DNA from: Gluconacetobacter asukensis | Lineage (GTDB): Bacteria; Pseudomonadota; Alphaproteobacteria; Acetobacterales; Acetobacteraceae | DNA length: 64,000 nucleotides | Direction: 5' to 3' | NCBI RefSeq assembly: GCF_014174375.1 | Contig: NZ_JABEQE010000004.1 | Span: 1 to 64,000, forward strand | Shown here: positions 138 to 13,177 of the stretch, piece after piece | Layout: every line of letters starts with the position of its first letter | Numbering within the stretch: position 1 is the first letter of the stretch | Notes under the pieces: generated by a model | What the model was told of the DNA's origin: nothing | What the model saw: the letters and a program-made list of their open reading frames with translations, nothing else | Database searches by the model: none | Position numbers and translations under genes: made by a program

Positions 138-1415
138 CTATCCCTCAGCCTTCATCACAATCGGCCGATCCACCAGCACAATCGACAGAATCCCCGCCAC
201 CACCAGCGCCACGGCGCACATATACCACGCGATATCGAACCGCCCGGTATAGGACACGATATAGCCCGTCATGATCGGGGCCAGCAGCCCCAGCGAATTG
301 CTGAAGGTCAGGGTCACCCCGGTCACGGCCCCGATCTTGCGCCCGTCTTCCACCAGATCGGTCAGCAACGCGGTATTGGCCCCGTTAGCGGCGATCAGGC
401 AGCAGAGCGAGACCGACAGCACCAGCAGGATCGGCCCCATGGTATGGAAATGCGGCAGCAGGCCGATGCTCGCGGCCCCGGTGACGCAGGCCGCCACGAT
501 AAACCGGCGGCGCGGCGGGTGCAGGTCGCGCCGGAAGACGATGCGCTCCGACACGCGTCCCACCACTATCGCCCCGGCAGCGGCGGCGAGGTAGCACAGC
601 GCGGTATGGGTGCCCGAGCCGGTCACGTCGATATGCAGCTCATGGATCAGATAGAGCGGCATCCACGACATGACGAGGAAGTTGAGGTAATTCTGCGTGC
701 ACTGCACGGCCAGGATGCCGAAGAACGAGCGCGAGCGGAACAGCGCCCGCACCTCGCCCAGCGAAATCGGGGTCTTCGGCTGCCGATGCACCCCCTCGCC
801 GGGATTGCGATAGATCAGCCACCACGCCACGGCCCACACCAGCCCGATCACGCCCAGCGCGATAAACTCAAGGCGCCAGCCGAACAGCGCGATCAGATAG
901 GCCCCCGCGATGGTGCCGCCCGCCAGCCCAAGCTGCATGCCGGTCAGCAGCACGGTCATCACCGATCCGCGCTCCTTCGGCAACGCCCAGTTCCGCACCA
1001 CCGTCGCCCCGACCCCGAAGGTCGGGGCTTCGCCCACGCCCAGCAGCACGCGCGTCATCAGGAATTGCGAGACATTCTGCACCATGCCGCCCAGCAGCAT
1101 CGCGCACGACCACAGCGCGACGGCCACACTGCCCACCAGCCGGGCGCCCACCATGTCCAGCACGATGGTGGACGGCAGGTTCAGCAGAAAATACGACCAG
1201 AGAAAGCTGGACGACACCCACCCCATCTGCACCGGCGTCAGCGAGAACTCCTTGCCCAGCGCCGGCAGGGCAATCGATAGCGCCGCCCGGTCGCCATAGC
1301 TGATGACGTACATCAGGAACACGAGGCCGAAGAACACATAGCGCGAGGCATGCGGCCCCCGCGCCGGCGCCGCGAGGGGGATCGGTGCAGGATGAGTGCT
1401 GGGGGCGGCGCTCAT
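138..1415 (-). CDS. MFS transporter, anion:cation symporter-like
   Basis: A 425-residue inner-membrane permease of the major facilitator superfamily. The first membrane segment is followed by the loop signature YGDRAALSIALPALGKEF (about residues 34-51), typical of the ACS (hexuronate/galactonate/tartrate/phthalate) branch, and about 12 hydrophobic segments follow. The start is the ATG at 1415: it overlaps the stop of the upstream DMT transporter by 4 bases (ATGA), and a longer frame reading back to 1691 has a low-complexity, out-of-family N terminus. It is the last gene of the leftward pxpB-pxpC-pxpA-DMT-MFS run, so an organic acid or lactam related to that pathway is a reasonable substrate guess; this is inference. 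The family call is firm, the substrate is not. Confidence 0.88.
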   Translation of the reverse strand: MSAAPSTHPAPIPLAAPARGPHASRYVFFGLVFLMYVISYGDRAALSIALPALGKEFSLTPVQMGWVSSSFLWSYFLLNLPSTIVLDMVGARLVGSVAVALWSCAMLLGGMVQNVSQFLMTRVLLGVGEAPTFGVGATVVRNWALPKERGSVMTVLLTGMQLGLAGGTIAGAYLIALFGWRLEFIALGVIGLVWAVAWWLIYRNPGEGVHRQPKTPISLGEVRALFRSRSFFGILAVQCTQNYLNFLVMSWMPLYLIHELHIDVTGSGTHTALCYLAAAAGAIVVGRVSERIVFRRDLHPPRRRFIVAACVTGAASIGLLPHFHTMGPILLVLSVSLCCLIAANGANTALLTDLVEDGRKIGAVTGVTLTFSNSLGLLAPIMTGYIVSYTGRFDIAWYMCAVALVVAGILSIVLVDRPIVMKAEG

Positions 1416-2332
1416 GACGGCGCTCCTTCGACAGGGGTTGAGGCCATGGCGGGTACGGGCGCTTTCGGCCGGTCGTGACGCAGCATCCACAGGCCCGATC
1501 CGACGATCAGCAGCCCGCCGGCCAGCATGGCCAGGCCGGGAACCTCCCCGAAACCAAGCCAGCCGATCATCGCCGCCCACAGCAGCCCGGAATAGGTGAA
1601 CGGCCCGATGGCCGAAACCTGGGCCGAGGCAAAGGCTTCGGTCTGCAACACCTGGGCAATGCCGGCAAAGGCCCCCACCGCGACCAGGCACAGCGCGTCA
1701 CCCATATGCGGCGTGGTCCAGATGAACGGCAGCGGGATGGACGTGGCCAGCGTCATCAGGATCGCCTGCCACAGGGCAATCGTGGTGCTGGATTCGGTGG
1801 CCGATAATTGCCGGATCTGCATGGTCGTCAGGGCGCCCACCGCACCCTGCGCCAGCGCCACCAGATAGGCCCAGCCGGCAACCGCCCCCACCACGCCCGC
1901 CTGGGGCGCATTCCGCCCCATGGCCACGACCACGACGCCGCAGAAACCGAGGAACACCGCAATCCAGCGATGGCGCGACGGCCGCTCATGCAGCAGCGGA
2001 ATCGACAGCAGCACCAGAAACAGCGGCTGGGTGTAGGACAGCACCTGCTGCTCGGCCAAAGGCAGCCGCGTCACCGTGACCACGATCATGATCATGCTGA
2101 TCAGCCCGACGACCGAGCGCGTCAGGTGCCCGCCGAAATGCTGCGTCTTCAGCGTCATCTTCGTGCGCGCCGCAATCATCATCACGAACGGCAGCGAAAA
2201 CAGATTGCGGAAGAAGATGATCTCCAGCACCGGCAGGCGCGGCCCCGTCACCTTCTGCAAACCATTCACCATGGCCGTGAACAGCATGGCCGAGGCCAGC
2301 AGCAGGGCCCCGCGCTTCAAATCATGCCTCAT
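1412..2332 (-). CDS. EamA/DMT-family transporter
   Basis: About 306 residues with ten hydrophobic segments in two EamA-type repeats, as in drug/metabolite transporters of the inner membrane. The start is placed at the ATG at 2332 (MRHDLKRG), giving the positive N-terminal edge before helix 1; an upstream ATG at 2359 would add nine residues of unconvincing sequence. The stop shares ATGA with the MFS gene start, and pxpA ends about 107 bases upstream, so it probably belongs to the same leftward transcript. Its role may be export or uptake of the metabolite handled by the Pxp proteins. Substrate is unknown. Confidence 0.85.
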   Translation of the reverse strand: MRHDLKRGALLLASAMLFTAMVNGLQKVTGPRLPVLEIIFFRNLFSLPFVMMIAARTKMTLKTQHFGGHLTRSVVGLISMIMIVVTVTRLPLAEQQVLSYTQPLFLVLLSIPLLHERPSRHRWIAVFLGFCGVVVVAMGRNAPQAGVVGAVAGWAYLVALAQGAVGALTTMQIRQLSATESSTTIALWQAILMTLATSIPLPFIWTTPHMGDALCLVAVGAFAGIAQVLQTEAFASAQVSAIGPFTYSGLLWAAMIGWLGFGEVPGLAMLAGGLLIVGSGLWMLRHDRPKAPVPAMASTPVEGAPS

Positions 2333-2438
2333 GGCGCCATCCACCCGACACGACTCCATACCGCCACCGCAATGACTGGCGCACTCTCTCCGGGCAGGAT
2401 GGGGCGGTCGGACAAATGGGAAATTCCTGTAGCTGGGG

Positions 2439-3206
2439 TCAGTCGGTCAGAAGGTGCGCGGGCGTCAGTTCGGCACCCGTCGCCTCGATTTCCGCGCGGA
2501 CGGCCCGCGCCAGGTCCAGCGATCCGGGCGTGTCGCTATGCACCAGGATCGAACGCGCCTTCACCGGCAGCCGGCCGCCATCGATGGTCCGCACCGACCC
2601 GTCTTCCAGAAACTGGCGCACCCGCGCCCGCACCGCCGCCAGGTCATGGATCACCGCACCGGGCTGGCCACGTGGCACCAGCGCGCCCTCGGCGGTATAG
2701 GCCCGGTCGGCCAGAAACAGCGTCAGCGTCCGCAGGCCCGCTTTTTCCGCCGCGCGTTCGGTCGGCTGTCCAGGCATGCAAAAGACGGTCAATTCGCGGT
2801 CCAGCGCGGCGATCACACGCGCCAGCCGCAGGGCGCGCCCGTCATCCGCATTGGCCATGGTGCCGAAGGCGGCATGGTAGCTCACATGCGTCACCCGGTG
2901 CCCATGCCGCGCCGCAATCCCCTGCAACGCGCCGATCTGGCAGGCCAGCATCGCTTCCATCTCGGTGTCGGACACCGCCATCGGCCGCCGCCCGAACCCG
3001 ATCAGGTCCGGCAGGCCCGGATGCGCGCCAATGCCCACCAGCCGCGCCTTCGCGGCCTGCACCGTAAGGTCCATGATGGCATAATCGCCGGCATGGAACC
3101 CGCAGGCGATGTTGGCCGAGGAGATGATTTCCATCAGCCCGTCATCGTCGGCGATGCTCCAGCGGCCGAACCCTTCGCCCATGTCCGAATTCAGATCGAT
3201 CTTCAT
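2439..3206 (-). CDS. pxpA: 5-oxoprolinase subunit PxpA (LamB/YcsF family)
   Basis: About 255 residues of the LamB/YcsF family, whose characterised member PxpA works with PxpB and PxpC to open 5-oxoproline to glutamate using ATP. The family N terminus (M)KIDLNSDMGEGFG is intact, followed by ANIACGFHAGD (about residues 34-44) and GAHPGLPDLIGFGRR (about 65-79). Two ATGs lie in tandem at 3209 and 3206. A GGAG element in the end of pxpC is spaced best for the second, which also gives the family N terminus, while the first overlaps the pxpC stop as ATGA. It is third in the pxpB-pxpC-pxpA run. With biotin carboxylase genes divergent next door, the true substrate may differ from free 5-oxoproline. 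Confidence 0.9.
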   Translation of the reverse strand: MKIDLNSDMGEGFGRWSIADDDGLMEIISSANIACGFHAGDYAIMDLTVQAAKARLVGIGAHPGLPDLIGFGRRPMAVSDTEMEAMLACQIGALQGIAARHGHRVTHVSYHAAFGTMANADDGRALRLARVIAALDRELTVFCMPGQPTERAAEKAGLRTLTLFLADRAYTAEGALVPRGQPGAVIHDLAAVRARVRQFLEDGSVRTIDGGRLPVKARSILVHSDTPGSLDLARAVRAEIEATGAELTPAHLLTD

Positions 3207-4207
3207 CATTTGGCTCCGGCTGCGCGGGGCGCCCGTCGCCGGGCAGAGCCGCCATACAGGGCGACCATCATGCGCAAATCATCGAGATACGCGGCAATCG
3301 GCCGCATGGCGGCCACACCCTCCGCATGGTCGCACGGCGCAAAGCGGATGCGCCTGCCGATGCGGGCCTGGGCCAGGCGCCACAGATCGGCTTCGATCAC
3401 GGTGGCAATCCGCGGATAGCCGCCGGCCGTGTTGGCATCCGCCATCTGCACGATGGGCGTCCCGGCCGGCGGCACCTGCACAATGCCGGGCACGATCCCG
3501 TAGGACCGCAGCTCGACCGGCTGATGCAGGCTCAACGCTTCACCCTTCAGCCGATACCCCACCCGGTCGCTCTGCGGCGTGATCTGCCATTCCGTGGCCC
3601 AGAACCGCTCGCGCGACGCCTCGGTGAACAGATGGAAATCGGTGGCCGGAATGGCACGCAGCGTCACCACGCCGTCATCCCCGTCACAAGGCCGGCGCAG
3701 CACGACCGAAGGCGGCACCGCCCCATAGCCGCCTGCCACCGGGCCACCCACCACCGGCAGACTGTCCCCGGCCTCCAGCGGCCGGCCCGACAGCCCGCCG
3801 AATCCCCCGCGCAACTGCGTGCTGCGCGAGCCCAGCACCACCGGCACATCCACCCCGCCCGACACGCAGACATAGCCACGCGCACCCCGGCGCGGGGGCG
3901 ATACCGTCAGCACCTGCCCGGCCGCCGCATGCGCCACGGCCCAGGGCAGGAGAGGGTGCCCGTCCAGGTCCAGCACGGCATCCACACCCGTAACGGCAAA
4001 GCTGCATGCATTCTCGAACCGGATGACGAACGGATAGGTCTGCAACTCGATACCGGCCGCATCCGAGGCATTGCCCAGCAGGATATTGCCGATTTCCAGC
4101 GCCAGAGGATCCATGGCGCCGGACGTGCCCACGCCCAACTGGCGATAGCCCGGCCGGCCCAGATCCTGCACCGTGTTCAGGGCGGAGGTTTCCAGAATCG
4201 TAATCAC
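3206..4207 (-). CDS. pxpC: 5-oxoprolinase subunit PxpC / biotin-dependent carboxyltransferase AHS2 family
   Basis: A 333-residue protein of the KipA/AHS2 family. The N terminus (ILETSALNTVQDLGRPGYR, then GVGTSGAMDPLALEIGN) is the conserved start of this family, and the C-terminal third carries the SDRVGYRLKG and ANTAGGYPRIATV motifs. The same fold forms half of the carboxyltransferase part of urea carboxylase/urea amidolyase. Both ends overlap neighbours by an ATGA (pxpB upstream, pxpA downstream), implying coupled translation and a stoichiometric PxpB-PxpC complex in the cytoplasm. Either a 5-oxoprolinase subunit or the transferase of a split biotin enzyme fits; the neighbouring accB/accC-like genes favour considering the second. 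Confidence 0.9.
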   Translation of the reverse strand: MITILETSALNTVQDLGRPGYRQLGVGTSGAMDPLALEIGNILLGNASDAAGIELQTYPFVIRFENACSFAVTGVDAVLDLDGHPLLPWAVAHAAAGQVLTVSPPRRGARGYVCVSGGVDVPVVLGSRSTQLRGGFGGLSGRPLEAGDSLPVVGGPVAGGYGAVPPSVVLRRPCDGDDGVVTLRAIPATDFHLFTEASRERFWATEWQITPQSDRVGYRLKGEALSLHQPVELRSYGIVPGIVQVPPAGTPIVQMADANTAGGYPRIATVIEADLWRLAQARIGRRIRFAPCDHAEGVAAMRPIAAYLDDLRMMVALYGGSARRRAPRAAGAK

Positions 4208-4899
4208 AGCTCAACGCTTTCCGGATAGAAGCGGATACGGTCCCCGATCGCGAACAGGGCAGGCGGCTCCCGGTGCGGATCGAACAGCGCGATTTCCGCA
4301 AAGCCGATCGAATTCCACCCGTTCGGCCCGGTCAGGGCGGAAATCCCGGCCTGCATGCCGCCGATCGTCACCGTGCCCGCCAGCATCTTCAGCGACGGCA
4401 CCGATTTCCGGGGGGTCGCAATGCGCGGGTCCAGCCCGTGCAGATAGCCAAATCCGGGCGCACTGCCCAACGCGCAGACCGTGTATTCGCCCGCCTGATG
4501 AATGGAAATCACCTCGGCCGGCGACAGGCCGGTATGGGCGGCGACATGGGCCAGATCCTCGCCCAGCGCCCCGCCATAGCGCACGCCAACCTCGAACAGC
4601 CGCCCCGCAATATGCCGCTCGGGCAGCGTCTCCCAGGCATGGCGCAGCCAGTCGGCCACGATGGCGGGCCGTTCCGGCGGCACGGAAAAGACCAGCATCA
4701 GGTTGGTCACACCGGGGATCAGTTCCTGAACGTCGCTGCGCGCACCGGCTTCTTCCATCAGTGCCCAGATCCGCCGCTGCTGCGCCAGGGTAAACTCCCC
4801 CGGCGCTTCGAACAGCATCGCCCGGGTGCCGATCATGCTGATCACGGGCCTGTCCCCTGCGGGGGGCGTCCGGGCGGCAACGGGGGCCGGATTGTGCAT
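4204..4899 (-). CDS. pxpB: 5-oxoprolinase subunit PxpB (KipI/AHS1 family)
   Basis: About 231 residues of the KipI/AHS1 family. Visible motifs are the N-terminal strand FEAPGEFTLAQQRRIWAL, the central EVGVRYGG..GEDLAHVAAHTGLSPAEVI block, and APGFGYLHGLDPRIATPRK followed by AGTVTIGGMQAGI. These match the AHS1 half of urea-carboxylase carboxyltransferases. I place the start at the ATG at 4899 (MHNPAPV), which follows AAGGTG about 12 bases upstream; a GTG nine bases further on the 5' side and a frame to 4944 are alternatives, since the first 20 residues are not conserved. It is the first gene of the leftward operon, and the divergent rightward operon starts about 360 bases away. Confidence 0.88.
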   Translation of the reverse strand: MHNPAPVAARTPPAGDRPVISMIGTRAMLFEAPGEFTLAQQRRIWALMEEAGARSDVQELIPGVTNLMLVFSVPPERPAIVADWLRHAWETLPERHIAGRLFEVGVRYGGALGEDLAHVAAHTGLSPAEVISIHQAGEYTVCALGSAPGFGYLHGLDPRIATPRKSVPSLKMLAGTVTIGGMQAGISALTGPNGWNSIGFAEIALFDPHREPPALFAIGDRIRFYPESVEL

Positions 4900-4974
4900 C
4901 GTGTCGCTGTTCACCTTATGCCGTCTCCAGCCCGATATGCACACATGCGCAAAAGCGCGGAGGGTCCGATTCTA

Positions 4975-5128
4975 AAACCGATATCGCAACGATATGGGGT
5001 CCGATCGTCCTTCCGATACCCAAACGTATGGCGATTCACGGACCGCTCGCCAGACCGAATTTCGCTGTGATGTCATCGGATAATCTTATGGCTCCGGCCC
5101 CGGTGCCCTTCCATCGCATTATCTTATG
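4975..5128. promoter_or_regulatory. divergent promoter region with palindrome and direct repeats
   Basis: The 357-base gap between pxpB and the SDR gene has no ORF and is AT-richer than its surroundings. It contains a perfect inverted repeat ATATCG-CAA-CGATAT (4981-4995) and two near-identical 16-mers, ATCGGATAATCTTATG (5075-5090) and ATCGCATTATCTTATG (5113-5128), matching at 14 of 16 positions with a 38-base period. These are plausible operators for one regulator acting on both operons. No regulator gene lies in the cluster, so the protein is unknown. Confidence 0.45.
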
Positions 5129-5256
5129 ACGCGAGAACGAACGGCTCTTGGCGCTCCGGTCGTTACGATACTAGCATCAAAAAACACCATGCCCGGACGA
5201 CGCGCCACGACCCGCGCCGCGCGGCCATTTTTCCTTGCAGGATCAGGATTCAGCCA

Positions 5257-6012
5257 ATGAGCACCCAGCCCTATAACACTGCTCTCGTCACCGGCGCCTC
5301 GTCTGGTATCGGTGCGGCGATCGTGGGGCGGCTGCAACAGGCCGGCATCACGGTCCACGCGGTCGCCCGCGACAAGGAACGCCTGGCCAAACTGGCGGAC
5401 GAAACCGGCTGCGTCCCCCACGCCCTCAGCGTCGCCGACCATGCCGCGATCGCAGCCCTCGCCGAAGAGATCGAGATCGATGTCCTGGTCAATAATGCCG
5501 GCCAGTCCCGCACCGGCAACATCACCAACACGACGCCGGACGATATCGACGCGCTGGTCGACGTCAATCTGCGCGCGGTCCTGCACCTGACCAACCTGGT
5601 CGTCCCCGGCATGATCCGGCGCGACCGGGGGCATATCGTCAATATCAGCTCCATCGCCGGCCATTACGCCTTCGCCGGCGGCAACACGGTCTATCACGCG
5701 ACCAAGGCCGGCGTGCATTCCCTGTCGCAGCAATTGCGGTGCGACCTCTACGGCTCGCATATCCGCGTCACCGAAATCTCTCCGGCCCGCGTGGAAACCG
5801 AAGTCTTCGGCCGGCTGATCGGCGACATGGCAGAAGCCAAGCGCCGCTTCTTCGACGAATATGACTCCCTGCTGCCGGTCGATATCGCCAATTCCGTCGC
5901 CTTCGCCGTCCTGGCCCCGCCGCGGATGAATGTCAGCTTCATGGAAGTGCTGCCGACCATGCAGGTGGTGGGCGGTCTGAACTTCGCGAAGAAAAAGCCC
6001 GACGCGGCGTAA
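5257..6012 (+). CDS. SDR-family NAD(P)-dependent oxidoreductase (YdfG-like)
   Basis: A 251-residue classical short-chain dehydrogenase. Cofactor motif TGASSGIG is at residues 12-19, NNAG at 79-82, catalytic serine around 131-132 and the YHATK active site with Tyr146 and Lys150. The stretch around ISPARVETEVFG and the C-terminal layout resemble the YdfG/3-hydroxy-acid (serine) dehydrogenase branch. The start follows a GCAGGATC leader. It is the first gene of the rightward operon; the biotin carrier gene begins five bases after its stop. Context suggests it oxidises or reduces a hydroxy or keto acid linked to the Pxp/biotin enzymes, which is inference. Confidence 0.88.
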   Translation: MSTQPYNTALVTGASSGIGAAIVGRLQQAGITVHAVARDKERLAKLADETGCVPHALSVADHAAIAALAEEIEIDVLVNNAGQSRTGNITNTTPDDIDALVDVNLRAVLHLTNLVVPGMIRRDRGHIVNISSIAGHYAFAGGNTVYHATKAGVHSLSQQLRCDLYGSHIRVTEISPARVETEVFGRLIGDMAEAKRRFFDEYDSLLPVDIANSVAFAVLAPPRMNVSFMEVLPTMQVVGGLNFAKKKPDAA

Positions 6013-6017
6013 CGCCA

Positions 6018-6461
6018 GTGGACATCCAGCAGCTCAAACGCCTGATCGACCTGCTTGCCCGCTCCCCGATCCAGGAACTGGCGATCGAGGAAGGCGGCCA
6101 GTCCATCCGGCTGACCCGCCAGCCGGCCGGCGCCATCATCCCGGCCCCGGCGCCGCTGCTGGCGGCACCGCAGGCACCCGCCGCGCCGCCCCCGGCTCCG
6201 TCGTCCCCGGCTCCGGCGGCCGAGGCACCGCGCATCATCACGGCCCCCACCTACGGCGTCTTCCATCTCTCCCCGTCACCGGGCACCCCGCCTTACGTGA
6301 CGGTGGGGCAGGCGGTCCAGGCGGGCCAGCAGGTAGGACTTGTGGAAGCGATGAAGGTCTTCAACGCCGTCAAGGCGACCCTCTCGGGTCAGGTCGCGGA
6401 GATCCTGGTCGAAGACGGTGCGGAAGTCGAGGCAGGCCAGCCCCTGTTCCGCCTGTCATGA
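6018..6461 (+). CDS. biotin carboxyl carrier protein (AccB-like), biotinylatable
   Basis: A 147-residue carrier starting with GTG. It has the three-part build of AccB: an N-terminal helical region (MDIQQLKRLIDLLARS), a Pro/Ala linker (about residues 35-72), and a biotinyl domain ending VGLVEAMKVFNAVKA, where Lys113 in EAMK is the biotinylation site. The linker and domain are the usual size. It overlaps the biotin carboxylase gene by four bases (ATGA). Because the adjacent genes supply AHS1/AHS2 carboxyltransferase homologues instead of AccA/AccD, it probably serves a dedicated carboxylase and not fatty-acid synthesis, though a role as a second ACC carrier cannot be excluded. Confidence 0.9.
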   Translation: MDIQQLKRLIDLLARSPIQELAIEEGGQSIRLTRQPAGAIIPAPAPLLAAPQAPAAPPPAPSSPAPAAEAPRIITAPTYGVFHLSPSPGTPPYVTVGQAVQAGQQVGLVEAMKVFNAVKATLSGQVAEILVEDGAEVEAGQPLFRLS

Positions 6462-7825
6462 GCGCGCCGCGCCGTTTCAACAGGGTGCTGATCGCCAATC
6501 GCGGCGAAATCGCCCTGCGCATCCAGCGCGCCTGCCGCGCCCTCGGGCTGGAGACGGTCGCCGTCCATTCCGAGGCCGACGCCGAAAGCCGCCATGTGCG
6601 CCAGGCCGATATCGCGCTGTGCATCGGCCCGGCCCCGGCGGCCCGCTCCTATCTCGATGCCGATGCCCTGCTGCTGGCCGCCCGCGCGACCGGCGCCTCG
6701 GCCATCCATCCGGGCTACGGTTTCCTGTCGGAAAACGCCGATTTCGCCGACGCGGTGGAAGCCGCCGGCCTCACCTTCATCGGCCCCACCGGCGCCTCCA
6801 TCCGCATGATGGGCGACAAGATCACGGCCAAGCGCGCCATGCGCGACGCCGGCGTGCCCTGCGTGCCCGGCTCCGACGGCCCCCTGCCGGCCGAGATGGA
6901 CGCCGTCCACGCCCTGGCGGCCCAGATCGGCTTCCCGGTCATCGTCAAGGCCTCGGGCGGCGGCGGCGGTCGCGGCATGCGCGTGGTCTGGAACGCCGAG
7001 GAACTGGGCGAAGCCGTCACCCTGACGGCCAAGGAAGCCCAGCAGGCGTTCGGCAACCCCACCCTCTATCTCGAACGCTTCATGCAGAAGCCCCGCCATA
7101 TCGAAATCCAGGTCCTGTGCGACACGCACGGCACGGCATTGTGGCTGGGTGCCCGCGACTGCTCGCTGCAACGGCGCCACCAGAAGGTGCTGGAAGAGGC
7201 CCCGGCCCCGGGCATCCCCCCCGACATCATCGCCGAAATCGGCGAACGCTGTGCCGAGGCCTGCCGCCGCATCTTCTATCGCGGCGCCGGCACGTTCGAA
7301 TTCCTCTACGAGGACGGCATCTTCGCCTTCATCGAGATGAACACCCGCGTGCAGGTGGAACACCCGATCACCGAGGCCACGACCGGCATCGACATCGTCG
7401 CCGCCCAGCTCCAGATCGCCCAGGGCGAGAAACTGGCCATCCGCCAGCAGGACGTCGCCACCCACGGCCACGCCATCGAATGCCGGATCAATGCGGAAGA
7501 CCCGCTCTCCTTCATGCCGTCCCCCGGCCGCATCACGCGCTGGGACCTGCCGGGCGGCCCGGGCGTCCGCATCGATACGCATGTCACGGCCGGCTATACC
7601 GTCCAGCCCTATTATGACTCCCTGATCGGCAAAATCATCGCCCACGGCACCACCCGGCAGGAAGCCATCGCCCGCCTGCGCGTGGCGCTGGCCGAAATGC
7701 AGGTGGAGGGGGTATCGACCAATATCCCCCTGCATCGCGACGTGCTGGCCGACCCGCATTTCCAGGAAGGCGGCGTCGATATCCATTATCTCGAACGATG
7801 GCTGGCAGACAGGACGACGCCATGA
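6458..7825 (+). CDS. biotin carboxylase (AccC-like)
   Basis: A 455-residue ATP-grasp biotin carboxylase, normal family length. It shows the N-terminal LIANRGEIALRI motif (about residues 11-22), HPGYGFLSENADF, the glycine-rich ATP loop GGGGGRGM (about 166-173), and the catalytic EMNTRVQVEHPITE near residue 291. It catalyses ATP- and bicarbonate-dependent carboxylation of biotin on a carrier protein. It is flanked by two carrier genes, overlapping each by four bases, so all three are translationally coupled. Specificity for the neighbouring Pxp-type carboxyltransferase is inferred from location only. Confidence 0.93.
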   Translation: MSAPRRFNRVLIANRGEIALRIQRACRALGLETVAVHSEADAESRHVRQADIALCIGPAPAARSYLDADALLLAARATGASAIHPGYGFLSENADFADAVEAAGLTFIGPTGASIRMMGDKITAKRAMRDAGVPCVPGSDGPLPAEMDAVHALAAQIGFPVIVKASGGGGGRGMRVVWNAEELGEAVTLTAKEAQQAFGNPTLYLERFMQKPRHIEIQVLCDTHGTALWLGARDCSLQRRHQKVLEEAPAPGIPPDIIAEIGERCAEACRRIFYRGAGTFEFLYEDGIFAFIEMNTRVQVEHPITEATTGIDIVAAQLQIAQGEKLAIRQQDVATHGHAIECRINAEDPLSFMPSPGRITRWDLPGGPGVRIDTHVTAGYTVQPYYDSLIGKIIAHGTTRQEAIARLRVALAEMQVEGVSTNIPLHRDVLADPHFQEGGVDIHYLERWLADRTTP

Positions 7826-8268
7826 CCGCAACGCCGCCCCTGCTCCCCGACCTCTCGACCCTCCCGAACGTGGAGGAAATCGGCCAGATCACCACCTGGC
7901 TGGCCGAAGCCGGCCTCGCCGCGATGGAACTTGCCAACGGCGCCGGCGGAAAACTGCGCATCGCCGTAGCACCCGCCCCGGCCCAGGTCGCCACACCCCA
8001 ACCGGCGGCCCCCATCGCCACCGCGCCCGAAACCGTCACCGCCACGGCCCCCTTCTTCGGCCGCCTGGCCCTGCACCACCCGCTCCGGCAGGACCCCTTC
8101 GCCCCGGTCGGGTCCACCGTGTGCAAGGGCGACACCATCGCCCTGCTGACCATCGACAGTCTCCAGCTTCCCGTCACCGCGCCGGCCGACGGCACGGTGG
8201 TGGAGATCCTGGCGCAGGAAGACGCATTGATCGGGTACGGCGCCCCCATCCTCACGATCGGGGCCTGA
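7822..8268 (+). CDS. biotinyl-domain protein lacking the biotinylation lysine
   Basis: A 148-residue protein with the same build as the carrier two genes upstream: a helical N terminus, a Pro/Ala linker (about 50-75) and a biotinyl/lipoyl-type domain to the C terminus (GTVVEILAQEDALIGYGAPILTIG). Aligned without gaps on GQVAEIL/GTVVEIL, the canonical EAMK falls on TIDS (residues 110-113), so the acceptor lysine is replaced by serine and no lysine occurs nearby. It cannot be biotinylated in the usual way. The ATG at 7822 overlaps the biotin carboxylase stop. It may be a structural or regulatory subunit that docks the complex. Function is not known to me. Confidence 0.82.
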   Translation: MTATPPLLPDLSTLPNVEEIGQITTWLAEAGLAAMELANGAGGKLRIAVAPAPAQVATPQPAAPIATAPETVTATAPFFGRLALHHPLRQDPFAPVGSTVCKGDTIALLTIDSLQLPVTAPADGTVVEILAQEDALIGYGAPILTIGA

Positions 8269-8865: not shown

Positions 8866-9100
8866 TCCTATGCCCTCGCAAGGATGGTATGGGGGGCAGC
8901 CTGTGTGCTATCCCGACAACGGCGTGTCGAAGCGTTTTTGCAACTGGGCGGCCTCCTATGTCGGGTGGCCTGCCAAATAGAACACCCGGACCTGTGGTCC
9001 TGTGGTGAGCCGCCTCGGCTGTTCACCACGGGGGAATAGGCAGGAGGTGCGTACGCCCACTGTGAAACACCTTTCGACCCGCCCGACGCCAGGCGGGGCG
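8866..9100 (+). repeat. structured repeat copy A (C4-antisense-RNA-like leader)
   Basis: This ~235-base unit recurs at 9282-9521 with high identity. It folds, on paper, into GGGTG/CACCC (8963-8967 with 8983-8987), GGACC-TGT-GGTCC (8988-9000), and GTGGTGA/TCACCAC (9002-9008 with 9023-9029). The first loop carries CCTGCC (8969-8974), complementary to GGCAGG in the downstream Shine-Dalgarno region AGGAGG (9042-9047); CCTCCT (8952-8957) is complementary to that AGGAGG. In this copy the start codon after the SD is ACG (9053-9055) instead of ATG. The following frame, from a GTG at 9062 to 9199, encodes a peptide containing KHLSTRPTPGG. Confidence 0.6.
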
Positions 9101-9281
9101 CGGGAAGGCCTGTCCGCCGAGGCTTTTATCGCCATGCCGGTCCCTGCATCGCGGCTCATGGGGTCTCCGTTCCGAACGGGAGACACTTTCTCCCTCTGAT
9201 GCTTGCCATCCAAAGGCCGCGAAAACCCTCCCTTGCATTGTCTTTCCTCCCTGTCGAACAAGCCTGGCGTACGCGCAATGC

Positions 9282-9521
9282 GCTCTATGAGCCTGCGCCA
9301 GGGTGGTATGGGGCCAGCCTGTGTGCTATTGTAATAATGGCGTGTCGAAACGCTTTTGCAACTGAGCGGCCTCCTATGTCGGGTGGCCTGCCAAATAGAA
9401 CACCCGGACCTATGGTCCTGCGGTGAACCGCCTCGGCTGTTCACCACGGGGAAATAGGCAGGAGGTGCGTATGCTCAGTGCAAAACACCTTTCGACCCGC
9501 CCGACGCCAGGCGGGTCGTGG
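9282..9521 (+). repeat. structured repeat copy B (C4-antisense-RNA-like leader)
   Basis: Second copy of the 8866-9100 unit, about 420 bases downstream. Hairpins: GGGTG/CACCC (9381-9385 with 9401-9405), GGACC-TAT-GGTCC (9406-9418), GGTGA/TCACC (9422-9426 with 9441-9445). Loop CCTGCC (9387-9392) and CCTCCT (9370-9375) are complementary to the SD region GGCAGGAGG (9457-9465), and here the SD is followed by a proper ATG at 9471. It ends in a further hairpin, CGACCCGCC/GGCGGGTCG. This arrangement, antisense arms upstream of the RBS they can mask, is that of phage P1/P4 C4 RNAs; the comparison is structural, not by alignment. Confidence 0.6.
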
Positions 9522-9599
9522 GGAACGTGTGTCCCCCTTGCTTCCGTCGTCGTCATGCCGTGCGAGGGTGGAAAGCGGATTGGCGATACAAAAAGATGA
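9471..9599 (+). CDS. short ORF after structured leader B
   Basis: A 42-residue reading frame starting five bases after a strong GGAGG. The N-terminal part (MLSAKHLSTRPTPGG) is repeated in the frame after copy A (9062-9199), where the start codon is mutated; the two then diverge, so conservation follows the DNA repeat and may not reflect protein selection. It could be a leader peptide, a short phage-derived (Ash-like) protein, or merely part of the RNA element. No function is claimed. Confidence 0.35.
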   Translation: MLSAKHLSTRPTPGGSWGTCVPLASVVVMPCEGGKRIGDTKR

Positions 9600-10126: not shown

Positions 10127-11896
10127 TTGGTTACGCCAGTTCGAGTTGGAAAACGCCGGTCGCTTTGCCGTTTGTGGATCGGCAGGCGATTGTGGGTTGG
10201 CGCCGTGGTCGCCGTTTTGCTGTCCACCACGATGGCCGGCATCATTCTGGTCCATGTCTGCCAGCTTTTCCTGCACGCCCGGCACGATGTGGCGGGCCTG
10301 GAGCAGCTTCGCCAGGTCCTGGACACCGCCAATCGCATCAGCGCCGAACGCGCCCCGTCCAATGTGCTGATGTCGGGCGAGCCCGGCCTGGCATCCGCCC
10401 GCGACAGGCTGCGTGCCGCGCGCGCCGAGACCGACCAGGCCCTGGCGCGCGACGCCGCCATCGTGCCGGCGGCGCAGTTCCAGGATGCCGTGCGGCATCT
10501 GGCGCGGGCACGGGAACTCGTCGATCGGGCCGCCGACCTGGCCCCGGCCGGCTATGACACCGTCCAGCACGCGGTCGATGCTCTCTTCGCGGCTTACGAC
10601 ACCTACCGGGCGGCAATCATGTGGGAGGCCGCCTCACTCATCCGCTCCGATCCCGGATTGGCCGGCTCTGTCCAGCACGCATTGCTCCTTTCCACCCTGC
10701 GCGACGACGCCGGGCGCCTGGGTTCGAGCATCATCGCGCCCCTGATCGTCCAGACCGCAATCCCATCGCCCAATATCGCGGCTGGCGACCGCCTGGCCGG
10801 ACGTATCGCCATGCAGTGGCAGATGCTGGCTCTCAATCCCGACCTGACGGATCGTGGTCCACGCCTGACGGCCCTTAGGACCGAAGCCGAGGCAGCGTTC
10901 TTCGGCGATGGGCAGCCGCTGGTCACCCGGTTGATCGCCGAGGGAACGCATGGCGGCGCCTATACGCGAAGCGCCGCCGCATTTTCCAATCATTACGTCG
11001 AAACGCTGACGCCACTGGAAACCTGGCGGACCGCCTGCCTGGACACTCTTCTTTCCCATTACAGGCAGAGGGCGCGGCGGGCGCTGGAGCTGGCATGGGT
11101 GGTCGGGGCCATGATGCTGGCCGTCGTCGGCCTGATCGCCGGCGGGGTGCTGCTGGTACATCTACGGGTGCTGCGTCCCCTTCTGCAGGCCAGCGAGGCC
11201 GTTGTGGCCCTGGTCCATGACCAGCCCGTCCACCTGCCTCTCCCCCATCGCGGCAGCCCGGAATTGCGGCCGCTCTTCGCAGCCGTGGAGCTTCTGGACG
11301 TCAAGCTGCGGGAGCGTGCCGCGCATGCGCGGCACCTGAAGCACCAGGCCGAGACCGACGAACTGACCCGCTTGCTCAACCGGCGAGCCTTCCGGATGCT
11401 GGGGAAACCAAGACTGGATGTCGCGGGATCGGATAGACGCGCGTTTCTCATCCTGCTGGATATCGACCATTTCAAATCCATCAACGACCGATATGGCCAT
11501 ACCGAAGGCGACCGGGTGCTGGTCGCGGTTGCCGCCGCCTTGCGCGCGCATGTGCGACCTGACGATCTGGTCGCGCGGATCGGCGGCGAGGAGTTCGCCA
11601 TCCTGATCCAGGCGCACACGCAAGGGACCGCGCTGTCCCTGGCGCACCGCCTGCGCCGGGGCGTGGACGATCTCGAGATCCTGTCCGCCGATGGTGCCAG
11701 GATCTCCGTCACCGCCAGTTTCGGCGTCGCGGCAGGTGACAGCCTCCCATGGCGGCAACTCATCGCGAAAGCGGATGCCGCCCTGTATGCCGCCAAACGG
11801 GCAGGGCGCAACTGCGTTCGCCTGGCCGAACAGGATGTCTTCGACTGGCCGCAGCCGCTTCCTGCAAAGACCGATCCATCGCGCTCCTTCGCATGA
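10127..11896 (+). CDS. membrane-anchored diguanylate cyclase (GGDEF)
   Basis: A 589-residue inner-membrane signalling protein starting with TTG after AAGGGTG. One membrane helix lies near residues 24-46 and a second near 325-350, enclosing a ~275-residue periplasmic, mostly helical sensor domain. A short HAMP-like linker leads to the GGDEF domain (about 410-575). The active site is intact as GGEEF (residues 486-490), with an RxxD inhibitory site (RPDD) five residues upstream, so it should make c-di-GMP and be product-inhibited. There is no EAL domain. In acetic acid bacteria c-di-GMP activates cellulose synthase, but nothing here links this protein to that process. Confidence 0.92.
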   Translation: MVTPVRVGKRRSLCRLWIGRRLWVGAVVAVLLSTTMAGIILVHVCQLFLHARHDVAGLEQLRQVLDTANRISAERAPSNVLMSGEPGLASARDRLRAARAETDQALARDAAIVPAAQFQDAVRHLARARELVDRAADLAPAGYDTVQHAVDALFAAYDTYRAAIMWEAASLIRSDPGLAGSVQHALLLSTLRDDAGRLGSSIIAPLIVQTAIPSPNIAAGDRLAGRIAMQWQMLALNPDLTDRGPRLTALRTEAEAAFFGDGQPLVTRLIAEGTHGGAYTRSAAAFSNHYVETLTPLETWRTACLDTLLSHYRQRARRALELAWVVGAMMLAVVGLIAGGVLLVHLRVLRPLLQASEAVVALVHDQPVHLPLPHRGSPELRPLFAAVELLDVKLRERAAHARHLKHQAETDELTRLLNRRAFRMLGKPRLDVAGSDRRAFLILLDIDHFKSINDRYGHTEGDRVLVAVAAALRAHVRPDDLVARIGGEEFAILIQAHTQGTALSLAHRLRRGVDDLEILSADGARISVTASFGVAAGDSLPWRQLIAKADAALYAAKRAGRNCVRLAEQDVFDWPQPLPAKTDPSRSFA

Positions 11897-11971: not shown

Positions 11972-13177
11972 TCAATCCCGAAGACCGGCCACAAACGCCG
12001 CAATCCGCCGGCACCCCTCGCGCAGCGTCTCGGTATCGGTCGCATAGGAAATACGAAAGAACGGGCTCATCCCGTACGCCGCACCCTGCACGCTCGCCAC
12101 CTGCTGCTCTTCCAGCAGCGCCATGACGAAGTCGGTATCGCTGTCGATCCGCCGGCCACCGGCCGAAACCTTGCCCAGACAGGCACCGATCTCGGGATAG
12201 ACATAGAACGCGCCCTGCGGCGTGTGGCAGTGCAGACCGGGGATGGCATTCAGCAGCCCCACCACAAGGTCGCGCCGGCCCTGATATTCGGCGGCCCGCT
12301 CCTTGAGGTAATCCTGCGGGCCTTCCAGCGCCGCGATGGCGGCAGCCTGCGCGATGGTGTTGATGCCGCTGGTGGCCTGGCCCTGCATGTTGTTCATGGC
12401 GGCGATCAGGTCGCGGGGGCCACCGCAGAAGCCGACGCGCCAGCCGGTCATGGCATAGCTCTTCGACACGCCGTTGACGGTCAGCACCCGGTCCTTCAGC
12501 CGCGGCTCGACCTGCGCCAGCGTGAAGAATTCGAAATCGTCATAGATCAGATGTTCGTAGATATCGTCGGTCAGCACCCACACATGCGGGTGCTTCATCA
12601 GCACGGCGGCAATCTCTTCCAGATCCTTGCGCGGGCAGCACGCCCCGGTCGGATTGTTGGGGAAGTTCAGCACCAGCCATTTCGTCCTGGGCGTAATGGC
12701 GGCATCCAGGTCGGCAGGCGAAAGCCGGAAATCATTGTCGGCCAGGCACGGCACCTGCACGATCTCGGCCCCACCCAGCCGGGCGATGTCGGCATAGCTG
12801 ATCCAGTAGGGGGTCGGCAGCACCACCTCGTCACCCGGATTACAGGTGGCCATCATGGCGTTATAGATGATCTGCTTCGCGCCATTGGCGATCAGGATCT
12901 CATCCAGCGCGTAGTCCAACTGATTGTCGCGCAGGAATTTCTGCCGCACCGCCGCCTTCAGCGCCGGCTTGCCGGCCTGCGGCGGGTATTTGGTGTCGCC
13001 ACCGCGCGCGGCGGTGATGGCGGCGTCAACGACATGGTCGGGCGTCGGAAAATCGGGTTCGCCGGACGACAGGCTGACAATCCGCGCCCCCTGCGCCTTG
13101 AGCGCGGAAGCCTTGTCCGTCATGGCGGCGGACGCCGAGATCGCAATCCCATTCAGTCGGTCTGCAAAGCCAGGCAT
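11972..13177 (-). CDS. pyridoxal-phosphate aspartate aminotransferase (class I/II)
   Basis: A 401-residue fold-type I aminotransferase of the subgroup I-gamma kind. Motifs: NPTG at 175-178, TDDIYEHL around 203-210, the Schiff-base lysine in VSKSYAMTGWR (Lys239), and the C-terminal substrate arginine in FRISYA near residue 380. It exchanges the amino group between aspartate and 2-oxoglutarate; some relatives also act on prephenate. GGAG lies nine bases before the ATG. It is divergent from aspartase with a conspicuous palindrome between them, suggesting shared nitrogen control. Confidence 0.92.
   Translation of the reverse strand: MPGFADRLNGIAISASAAMTDKASALKAQGARIVSLSSGEPDFPTPDHVVDAAITAARGGDTKYPPQAGKPALKAAVRQKFLRDNQLDYALDEILIANGAKQIIYNAMMATCNPGDEVVLPTPYWISYADIARLGGAEIVQVPCLADNDFRLSPADLDAAITPRTKWLVLNFPNNPTGACCPRKDLEEIAAVLMKHPHVWVLTDDIYEHLIYDDFEFFTLAQVEPRLKDRVLTVNGVSKSYAMTGWRVGFCGGPRDLIAAMNNMQGQATSGINTIAQAAAIAALEGPQDYLKERAAEYQGRRDLVVGLLNAIPGLHCHTPQGAFYVYPEIGACLGKVSAGGRRIDSDTDFVMALLEEQQVASVQGAAYGMSPFFRISYATDTETLREGCRRIAAFVAGLRD

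Follow-up and report, generated by a model that had tools for sequence, protein, structure and literature searches.

A 64,000-nucleotide stretch of Gluconacetobacter asukensis (contig NZ_JABEQE010000004.1; hereafter the window, whose positions are used throughout) carries the 5-oxoprolinase genes pxpB, pxpC and pxpA, divergent from genes for a short-chain dehydrogenase/reductase (SDR), a biotin carboxyl carrier protein (BCCP), a biotin carboxylase (BC) and a second carrier-like protein (carrier 2). The locus probably encodes a multi-subunit, biotin-dependent lactam-activating enzyme together with its catabolic pathway, in other words, a conserved enzyme related to urea carboxylase, split into separate proteins and joined with PxpA and a set of catabolic genes. 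The partnership of BC and BCCP with the PxpB/PxpC pair is well supported; the chemistry and the substrate we infer from sequence.

In the proposed scheme, BC would use ATP and bicarbonate to carboxylate biotin on Lys113 of BCCP, and the PxpB/PxpC pair would act as carboxyltransferase (CT), placing the carboxyl group onto the amide of a cyclic amino acid. PxpA would open the activated ring, the N-carboxy product would then give off CO2, and the released amino acid would be processed by an aminotransferase and the SDR. Import of the lactam would fall to major facilitator superfamily (MFS) and EamA transporters in G. asukensis and to amino-acid ATP-binding cassette (ABC) transporters in other loci.

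Enzyme parts and their counterparts in the genome

All nine genes at 138-8268 were confirmed as real, and a sequence-only reading of the window, which had described a pxpB-pxpC-pxpA operon divergent from genes for BCCP, BC, a second carrier and an SDR, had placed each of them correctly. PxpA, PxpB and PxpC, the components of the PxpABC 5-oxoprolinase, are encoded together. Also, the functional parts of urea carboxylase are all present, namely BC, a biotinylatable BCCP and the AHS1/AHS2-type carboxyltransferase domains CT_A_B and CT_C_D, yet they sit on separate open reading frames (ORFs) and not on the single polypeptide of that enzyme. Model TIGR02712 is matched by the window BC on positions 1-442 and by PxpC on positions 449-769. 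The biotin site of BCCP is intact (motif EAMKVF, Lys codon at 6354-6356), and nine of nine motif patterns searched were present in BC.

The genome (4.39 Mb in 64 contigs) contains three CT_C_D loci and three biotin carboxylases. One BC belongs to the housekeeping accB-accC pair on contig C2, so the window proteins are not the only AccB/AccC of this organism. The second is that of the window, and the third, on contig C21, lies beside PxpB, PxpC, PxpA, a BCCP (LEVMKTL) and a Hydantoinase_A/Hydantoinase_B pair. In this last region (L007, C21:1-20000; L labels denote loci) the two hydantoinase genes follow the BC-linked PxpABC set, with a Peptidase_M20 gene near. The only two PF01039 matches in the genome correspond to accA and accD, and a search for PYC/OADA carboxyltransferases in the genome gave no match; thus, short of working with AccAD, the two extra BCs have no findable CT other than the PxpBC pairs. 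The sequence-only reading had named replacement of a missing accB/accC as a finding that would count against it; accA, accB, accC and accD are all located elsewhere in the genome. The window pair has a close paralogue in the third CT pair, at C4:263756 (66% for PxpC, 70% for PxpB), in a region (L008, C4:256000-275000) that also encodes an EamA transporter and, twice, PxpA.

Conserved linkage across genomes

Many bacteria from soil or associated with plants share this gene set. Among 80 named loci, the best 80 of 589 relatives chosen on PxpC similarity alone, PxpB was found in 80, PxpA in 78, a BC above 150 bits in 71, the SDR in 70, an aminotransferase in 71 and an amino-acid ABC permease in 65. 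A set of 40 loci from the family and class was also fetched (L028-L067; L054, on a short contig without a match, was dropped later). It included 14 window-like loci, all 14 with BC, and 11 BC-linked loci of another kind (Lys type, described below); BC was absent from the flanks of 13 further PxpBC loci and from the Lys-type locus L051.

An independent sample of 199 Pseudomonadota genomes, drawn evenly over the phylum, yielded 81 genomes with CT_C_D, from which 77 non-fused loci were fetched. BC occurred within ~8 kb in 19 of these 77, spread over separate CT clades. Only two of the 19 (L187 and L205) are of the window kind, and therefore the module is uncommon in the phylum and BC linkage less so; L193 has a window-type CT without BC. 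The sequence-only reading had called for such a survey and would have yielded to an absence of linkage elsewhere; since linkage recurs in other genomes, it is not a chance feature of this locus.

Phylogeny of the carboxyltransferase and the biotin carboxylase

A CT tree was built with FastTree from 152 combined PxpC and PxpB rows; this tree and the BC tree are quick trees with long branches flagged. BC linkage required 12 changes on the CT tree, compared with a mean of 49.6 for shuffled labels, and none of 500 shuffles was as low. Three BC-linked groups were recovered. The first unites the fused urea carboxylases with the Lys-type group, the second is a PxpB-PxpC fusion group of 11 rows, and the third is that of the window, with 37 rows (two of them duplicates), of which 29 have BC. 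On the BC tree, 38 of the 39 BCs labelled window-type form one clade, along with an Erwinia BC and separate from 10 presumed housekeeping AccC sequences, one of which is E. coli accC. The exception, L156, has a CT that is not of the window type. Each of the two remaining BC-linked groups has a BC clade of its own, and the BC groups thus track the CT groups.

The fusion group comprises L162, L169, L175, L177, L186, L189, L190, L195-L197 and L203; 10 of these 11 loci have PxpB and PxpC fused in frame, Phe occupies PxpC position 254, and the BC clade of the group has 8 rows. In-frame fusions of BC with PxpB were not found in module loci, the fusions encountered being PxpB-PxpC in this group and the fused urea carboxylases.

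A precedent is offered by PDB 9yx5, known to us from its chain listings and one alignment, in which AHS1/AHS2 chains occur with an AccA3 BC-BCCP subunit and the AHS1 chain carries, as in the window, an Arg at the column discussed below; no chain of the entry matched PxpA. Unlike the separate proteins of the window, AccA3 joins BC and BCCP in one polypeptide, shared with acyl-CoA carboxylases. Conserved linkage, the tracking of CT by BC, the failure to find another CT in this genome and this precedent together argue that BC and BCCP belong with the AHS1/AHS2-type pair.

Residues of the carboxyltransferase pair

In the excerpt of PMC5770610 available to us, Lys1605 of Kluyveromyces lactis urea amidolyase is the most likely essential general base, and the K1605A variant was severely inhibited. 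By alignment this residue falls within the motif TKYNP, and its column holds Lys in fused urea carboxylases and in the Lys-type BC-linked group. Arg occupies the column in the group of the window (Arg179 of PxpB) and also in unlinked, ordinary PxpB. The Lys/Arg difference was considered as a marker of BC-linked versus unlinked PxpB and rejected, as the BC-linked group of the window has Arg like the unlinked proteins.

At PxpC position 254, among 203 distinct PxpC, Gln was found in 87 with a nearby BC and 10 without (90 and 10 with duplicates), Leu in 69 without and 20 with BC, and Phe in 11, all with BC; other residues account for 6. Gln254 also occurs in L198, which is placed elsewhere in the CT tree. 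It marks the group of the window, but this amounts to little more than a single change on a single stem and so carries no independent weight.

The wider catabolic module

Clustering of neighbouring genes brought up a class I/II aminotransferase lying outside 2439-8268, the range within which the sequence-only reading had rightly placed the genes it named; that range stops short of the module. The 97 window-type loci include three duplicate records (L116, L076, L136), leaving 94 distinct loci, of which 84 have the aminotransferase, 79 the SDR, 71 an ABC permease, 69 a solute-binding protein and 37 an RraA-type aldolase (86, 80, 71, 69 and 37 of 97 with duplicates). In the 71 loci without a nearby BC (13 from the family and class set and 58 from the phylum sample), the aminotransferase was seen in 0 and 1 and the SDR likewise in 0 and 1. 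The single locus concerned is L193, itself window-type, and the other 70 of 70 have neither gene. Both genes were also absent from the 14 Lys-type and 11 fusion-group loci. The aminotransferase is part of the same module.

Carrier 2 has Ser at the column where BCCP has its biotin Lys. Homologues occur in at least 78 of the 97 window-type loci, a lower bound because filters dropped the carrier 2 of L042, and Lys stands at this column in none of the 78. The corresponding count for BCCP (Lys in 82 of 82) is circular, those proteins having been picked by their biotin motif; among seven BCCPs missed by the motif, the four read by eye all have Lys and L100, L112 and L123 are unread. Since carrier 2 is retained in L124 and L147, both without BC and BCCP nearby, it probably serves the carboxyltransferase as a docking or structural subunit. 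In L083, on an Agrobacterium vitis plasmid, BCCP and carrier 2 are kept and there is no BC in the flanks read.

Organization of the locus

Positions, strands and supporting matches of the features are collected in Table 1. On the minus strand, pxpB, pxpC and pxpA each overlap the next gene by four bases, and on the plus strand the SDR, BCCP, BC and carrier 2 genes are closely spaced. The start of carrier 2 is more likely the ATG at 7822, since it overlaps the BC stop, than that of the longer ORF at 7798. The sequence of the divergent intergenic region that is invariant across 8 related loci is accompanied there by the near-copy ATTATCTTATG, and the two are a possible operator in the divergent promoter region.

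In the same-genus locus L042 the aminotransferase gene comes immediately after that of carrier 2. The two lie ~3.7 kb apart in the window, with a pair of 213-nt repeats (8892-9104 and 9310-9522, 90% identical) and a gene for a GGDEF-domain protein (10127-11896, plus strand, PF00990) in between; L042 has no stretch comparable to that with the repeats.

Table 1. Features of the locus, with positions in the 64,000-nt window
Feature	Position	Strand	Supporting evidence
MFS transporter	138-1418	-	PF07690; same position in relatives L032, L035, L040, L042
EamA/DMT transporter	1412-2359	-	PF00892; position kept in relatives L032, L035, L040, L042
PxpA (LamB/YcsF lactamase-like)	2439-3209	-	PF03746, 288 bits; NF003814, 318 bits (cut-off 226)
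PxpC, CT subdomains A and B, signature Gln254	3206-4207	-	PF02626, 293 bits; TIGR00724 above cut-off; equivalog model NF045499, 298 bits, under cut-off (500)
PxpB, CT subdomains C and D, Arg179	4204-4944	-	PF02682; TIGR00370, 170 bits (cut-off 146)
Divergent intergenic region with invariant ATAATCTTATG	4945-5256	.	Alignment of 8 loci
SDR oxidoreductase, YdfG-like	5257-6012	+	PF00106; NF007829, 160 bits, under cut-off (411)
BCCP, biotin Lys113 in EAMKVF	6018-6461	+	TIGR00531, 123 bits (cut-off 115)
BC	6458-7825	+	TIGR00514, 656 bits (cut-off 626.5)
Carrier 2, pseudo-BCCP without biotin Lys	7822-8268	+	PF00364, 37 bits
Class I/II aminotransferase	11972-13177	-	PF00155, 277 bits; NF004769 (aspartate transaminase), 505 bits (cut-off 617)

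Substrate

Amino-acid-type ABC transporters, the aspartate-type aminotransferase and PxpA suggest that the substrate is an alpha-amino acid lactam, most likely one resembling 5-oxoproline. A second PxpBC was looked for in 16 module genomes, in which 30 of 49 CT places were read (one genome, G378, gave only non-Gln ones). Thirteen of the 16 hold another PxpBC without Gln254; in 10 genomes it has Leu at this position and in 3 Phe, the latter kind belonging to the BC-linked fusion group. Given this other PxpBC, the module may act on a specific amino-acid lactam and not on 5-oxoproline alone. As a possibility that we advance tentatively, the enzyme could be a dedicated biotin-dependent lactam carboxylase, derived from a PxpBC-type 5-oxoprolinase by gaining BC, BCCP and a non-biotinylated carrier, in which the ring would be opened via N- (or O-) carboxylation instead of phosphorylation, providing a route for a substituted pyroglutamate. 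To speculate from the gene families present, an example might be a plant gamma-hydroxy or gamma-methyl glutamate lactam, whose opened form would be transaminated and then cut by the RraA-type aldolase, which is present in 37 of the 80 named loci.

It is rather doubtful, though conceivable, that the physiological substrate of the same biotin enzyme is simply 5-oxoproline, a reading that overlaps the one preferred here, the substrate being the sole difference. Each of the three CT pairs of G. asukensis carries Gln254, leaving no ordinary PxpBC for 5-oxoproline, and for that reason this compound is still a candidate in G. asukensis. A Levilactobacillus brevis plasmid (L226) has, in one row, pxpB, pxpC, BCCP, BC, a D-glutamate cyclase family gene, pxpA and an NRAMP transporter; the inclusion of the cyclase family gene in a BC-linked operon keeps 5-oxoproline in play for the Levilactobacillus lineage. 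Against this stand the additional PxpBC in 13 of the 16 module genomes and the conserved, dedicated aminotransferase and SDR. The sequence-only reading had proposed 5-oxoproline or another lactam or amide; the first is unproven and perhaps incomplete on the same grounds.

Alternative explanations

Several observations weigh against a biotin-dependent enzyme at this locus. PxpABC itself is reported as an ATP-using 5-oxoprolinase; a summary of the system is given in PMC8453981. The CT group of the window lies within a 48-row clade (support 100) together with the E. coli and Klebsiella PxpBC, which have no BC near them, and with two unlinked rows, L145 and L149. PxpB has Arg179 in place of the likely general-base Lys of urea carboxylase, which speaks against transferring the urea carboxylase mechanism unchanged. 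No BC above 150 bits was present in the flanks of nine of the 80 named loci (L083, L089, L112, L117, L118, L124, L137, L145 and L147), and none occurs near 58 of the 77 CT loci of the phylum sample. As to the nine, L117 has BC, BCCP and carrier 2 ~10 kb off on the same contig (L232), L137 sits at a contig edge and the BC of L112 is a fragment. The genomes of L118, L124, L147 and L193 each have one short AccC-like BC (59-60% identity), their remaining BC frames of ~1200 aa being taken as fused urea carboxylases. Finally, the paralogous CT pair of L008 has no BC or BCCP in the 19 kb read, and may borrow those of the window.

These points would fit an ordinary ATP-driven PxpABC 5-oxoprolinase with BC and BCCP merely co-located, for example as extra parts of acetyl-CoA carboxylase, an explanation that is unlikely here. 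It agrees with the Arg of ordinary PxpB, the grouping of the CT with E. coli PxpBC, the lack of BC in some module loci, and the scores of BC and BCCP above the cut-offs of the acetyl-CoA carboxylase models TIGR00514 and TIGR00531. It is opposed by the complete set of acc genes elsewhere, by the clade that module BCs form on their own, by BC linkage in several CT clades, and by the lack of SDR and aminotransferase in 70 of 70 BC-less PxpBC loci other than L193. The window shares with the PxpABC 5-oxoprolinase the three protein families and the CT clade, and differs from it by a dedicated BC, BCCP, carrier 2, SDR and aminotransferase, and by Gln254 instead of Leu.

A true split urea (or guanidine) carboxylase is highly improbable: CT_A_B, CT_C_D, BC and BCCP are indeed its parts, but the likely general-base Lys is Arg, none of the nine window proteins scanned is an allophanate hydrolase, in place of which PxpA, the aminotransferase and amino-acid transporters are found nearby, and the fused urea carboxylases group with a different, Lys-keeping BC-linked set. 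The split urea-carboxylase-like enzyme of the sequence-only reading therefore holds for the partnership of BC/BCCP with an AHS1/AHS2-type pair and not in detail, given the Arg and the grouping with E. coli PxpBC.

Related arrangements are on record. In Staphylococcus aureus, a six-gene operon combines pxpB-pxpC-pxpA with accB and accC as in the window, but with no SDR or aminotransferase named in the excerpt, and its authors assign accBC to fatty-acid synthesis (PMC11315280). Extra BCCP/BC and pxpBC are mentioned for Lactiplantibacillus pentosus (PMC12427679), and Pseudomonas pxpABC is reported in root attachment (PMC13390462). Split UCT genes were noted in 2011 without functional data, section 8 of that paper being silent on BC linkage (PMC3199775). 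No statement that BC/BCCP serve PxpBC was found in the portions of the literature searched, and for an Aspergillus lamA/lamB lactam locus the literature search found no paper.

Implications

Such a cluster is usually labelled as a plain 5-oxoproline-splitting enzyme beside spare parts of fatty-acid synthesis. If the reading as a biotin-dependent lactam-activating enzyme is correct, the module genes labelled 'acetyl-CoA carboxylase' and 'PxpB/PxpC' would encode a distinct biotin enzyme that acts on an amide, and the catabolic pathway of the module would be one without an assignment in the literature searched. Also, because the group of the window shares a clade with E. coli PxpBC, it would become a testable question which group the AHS1/AHS2 fold transfers, phosphoryl or carboxyl, and how the one activity gave rise to the other.

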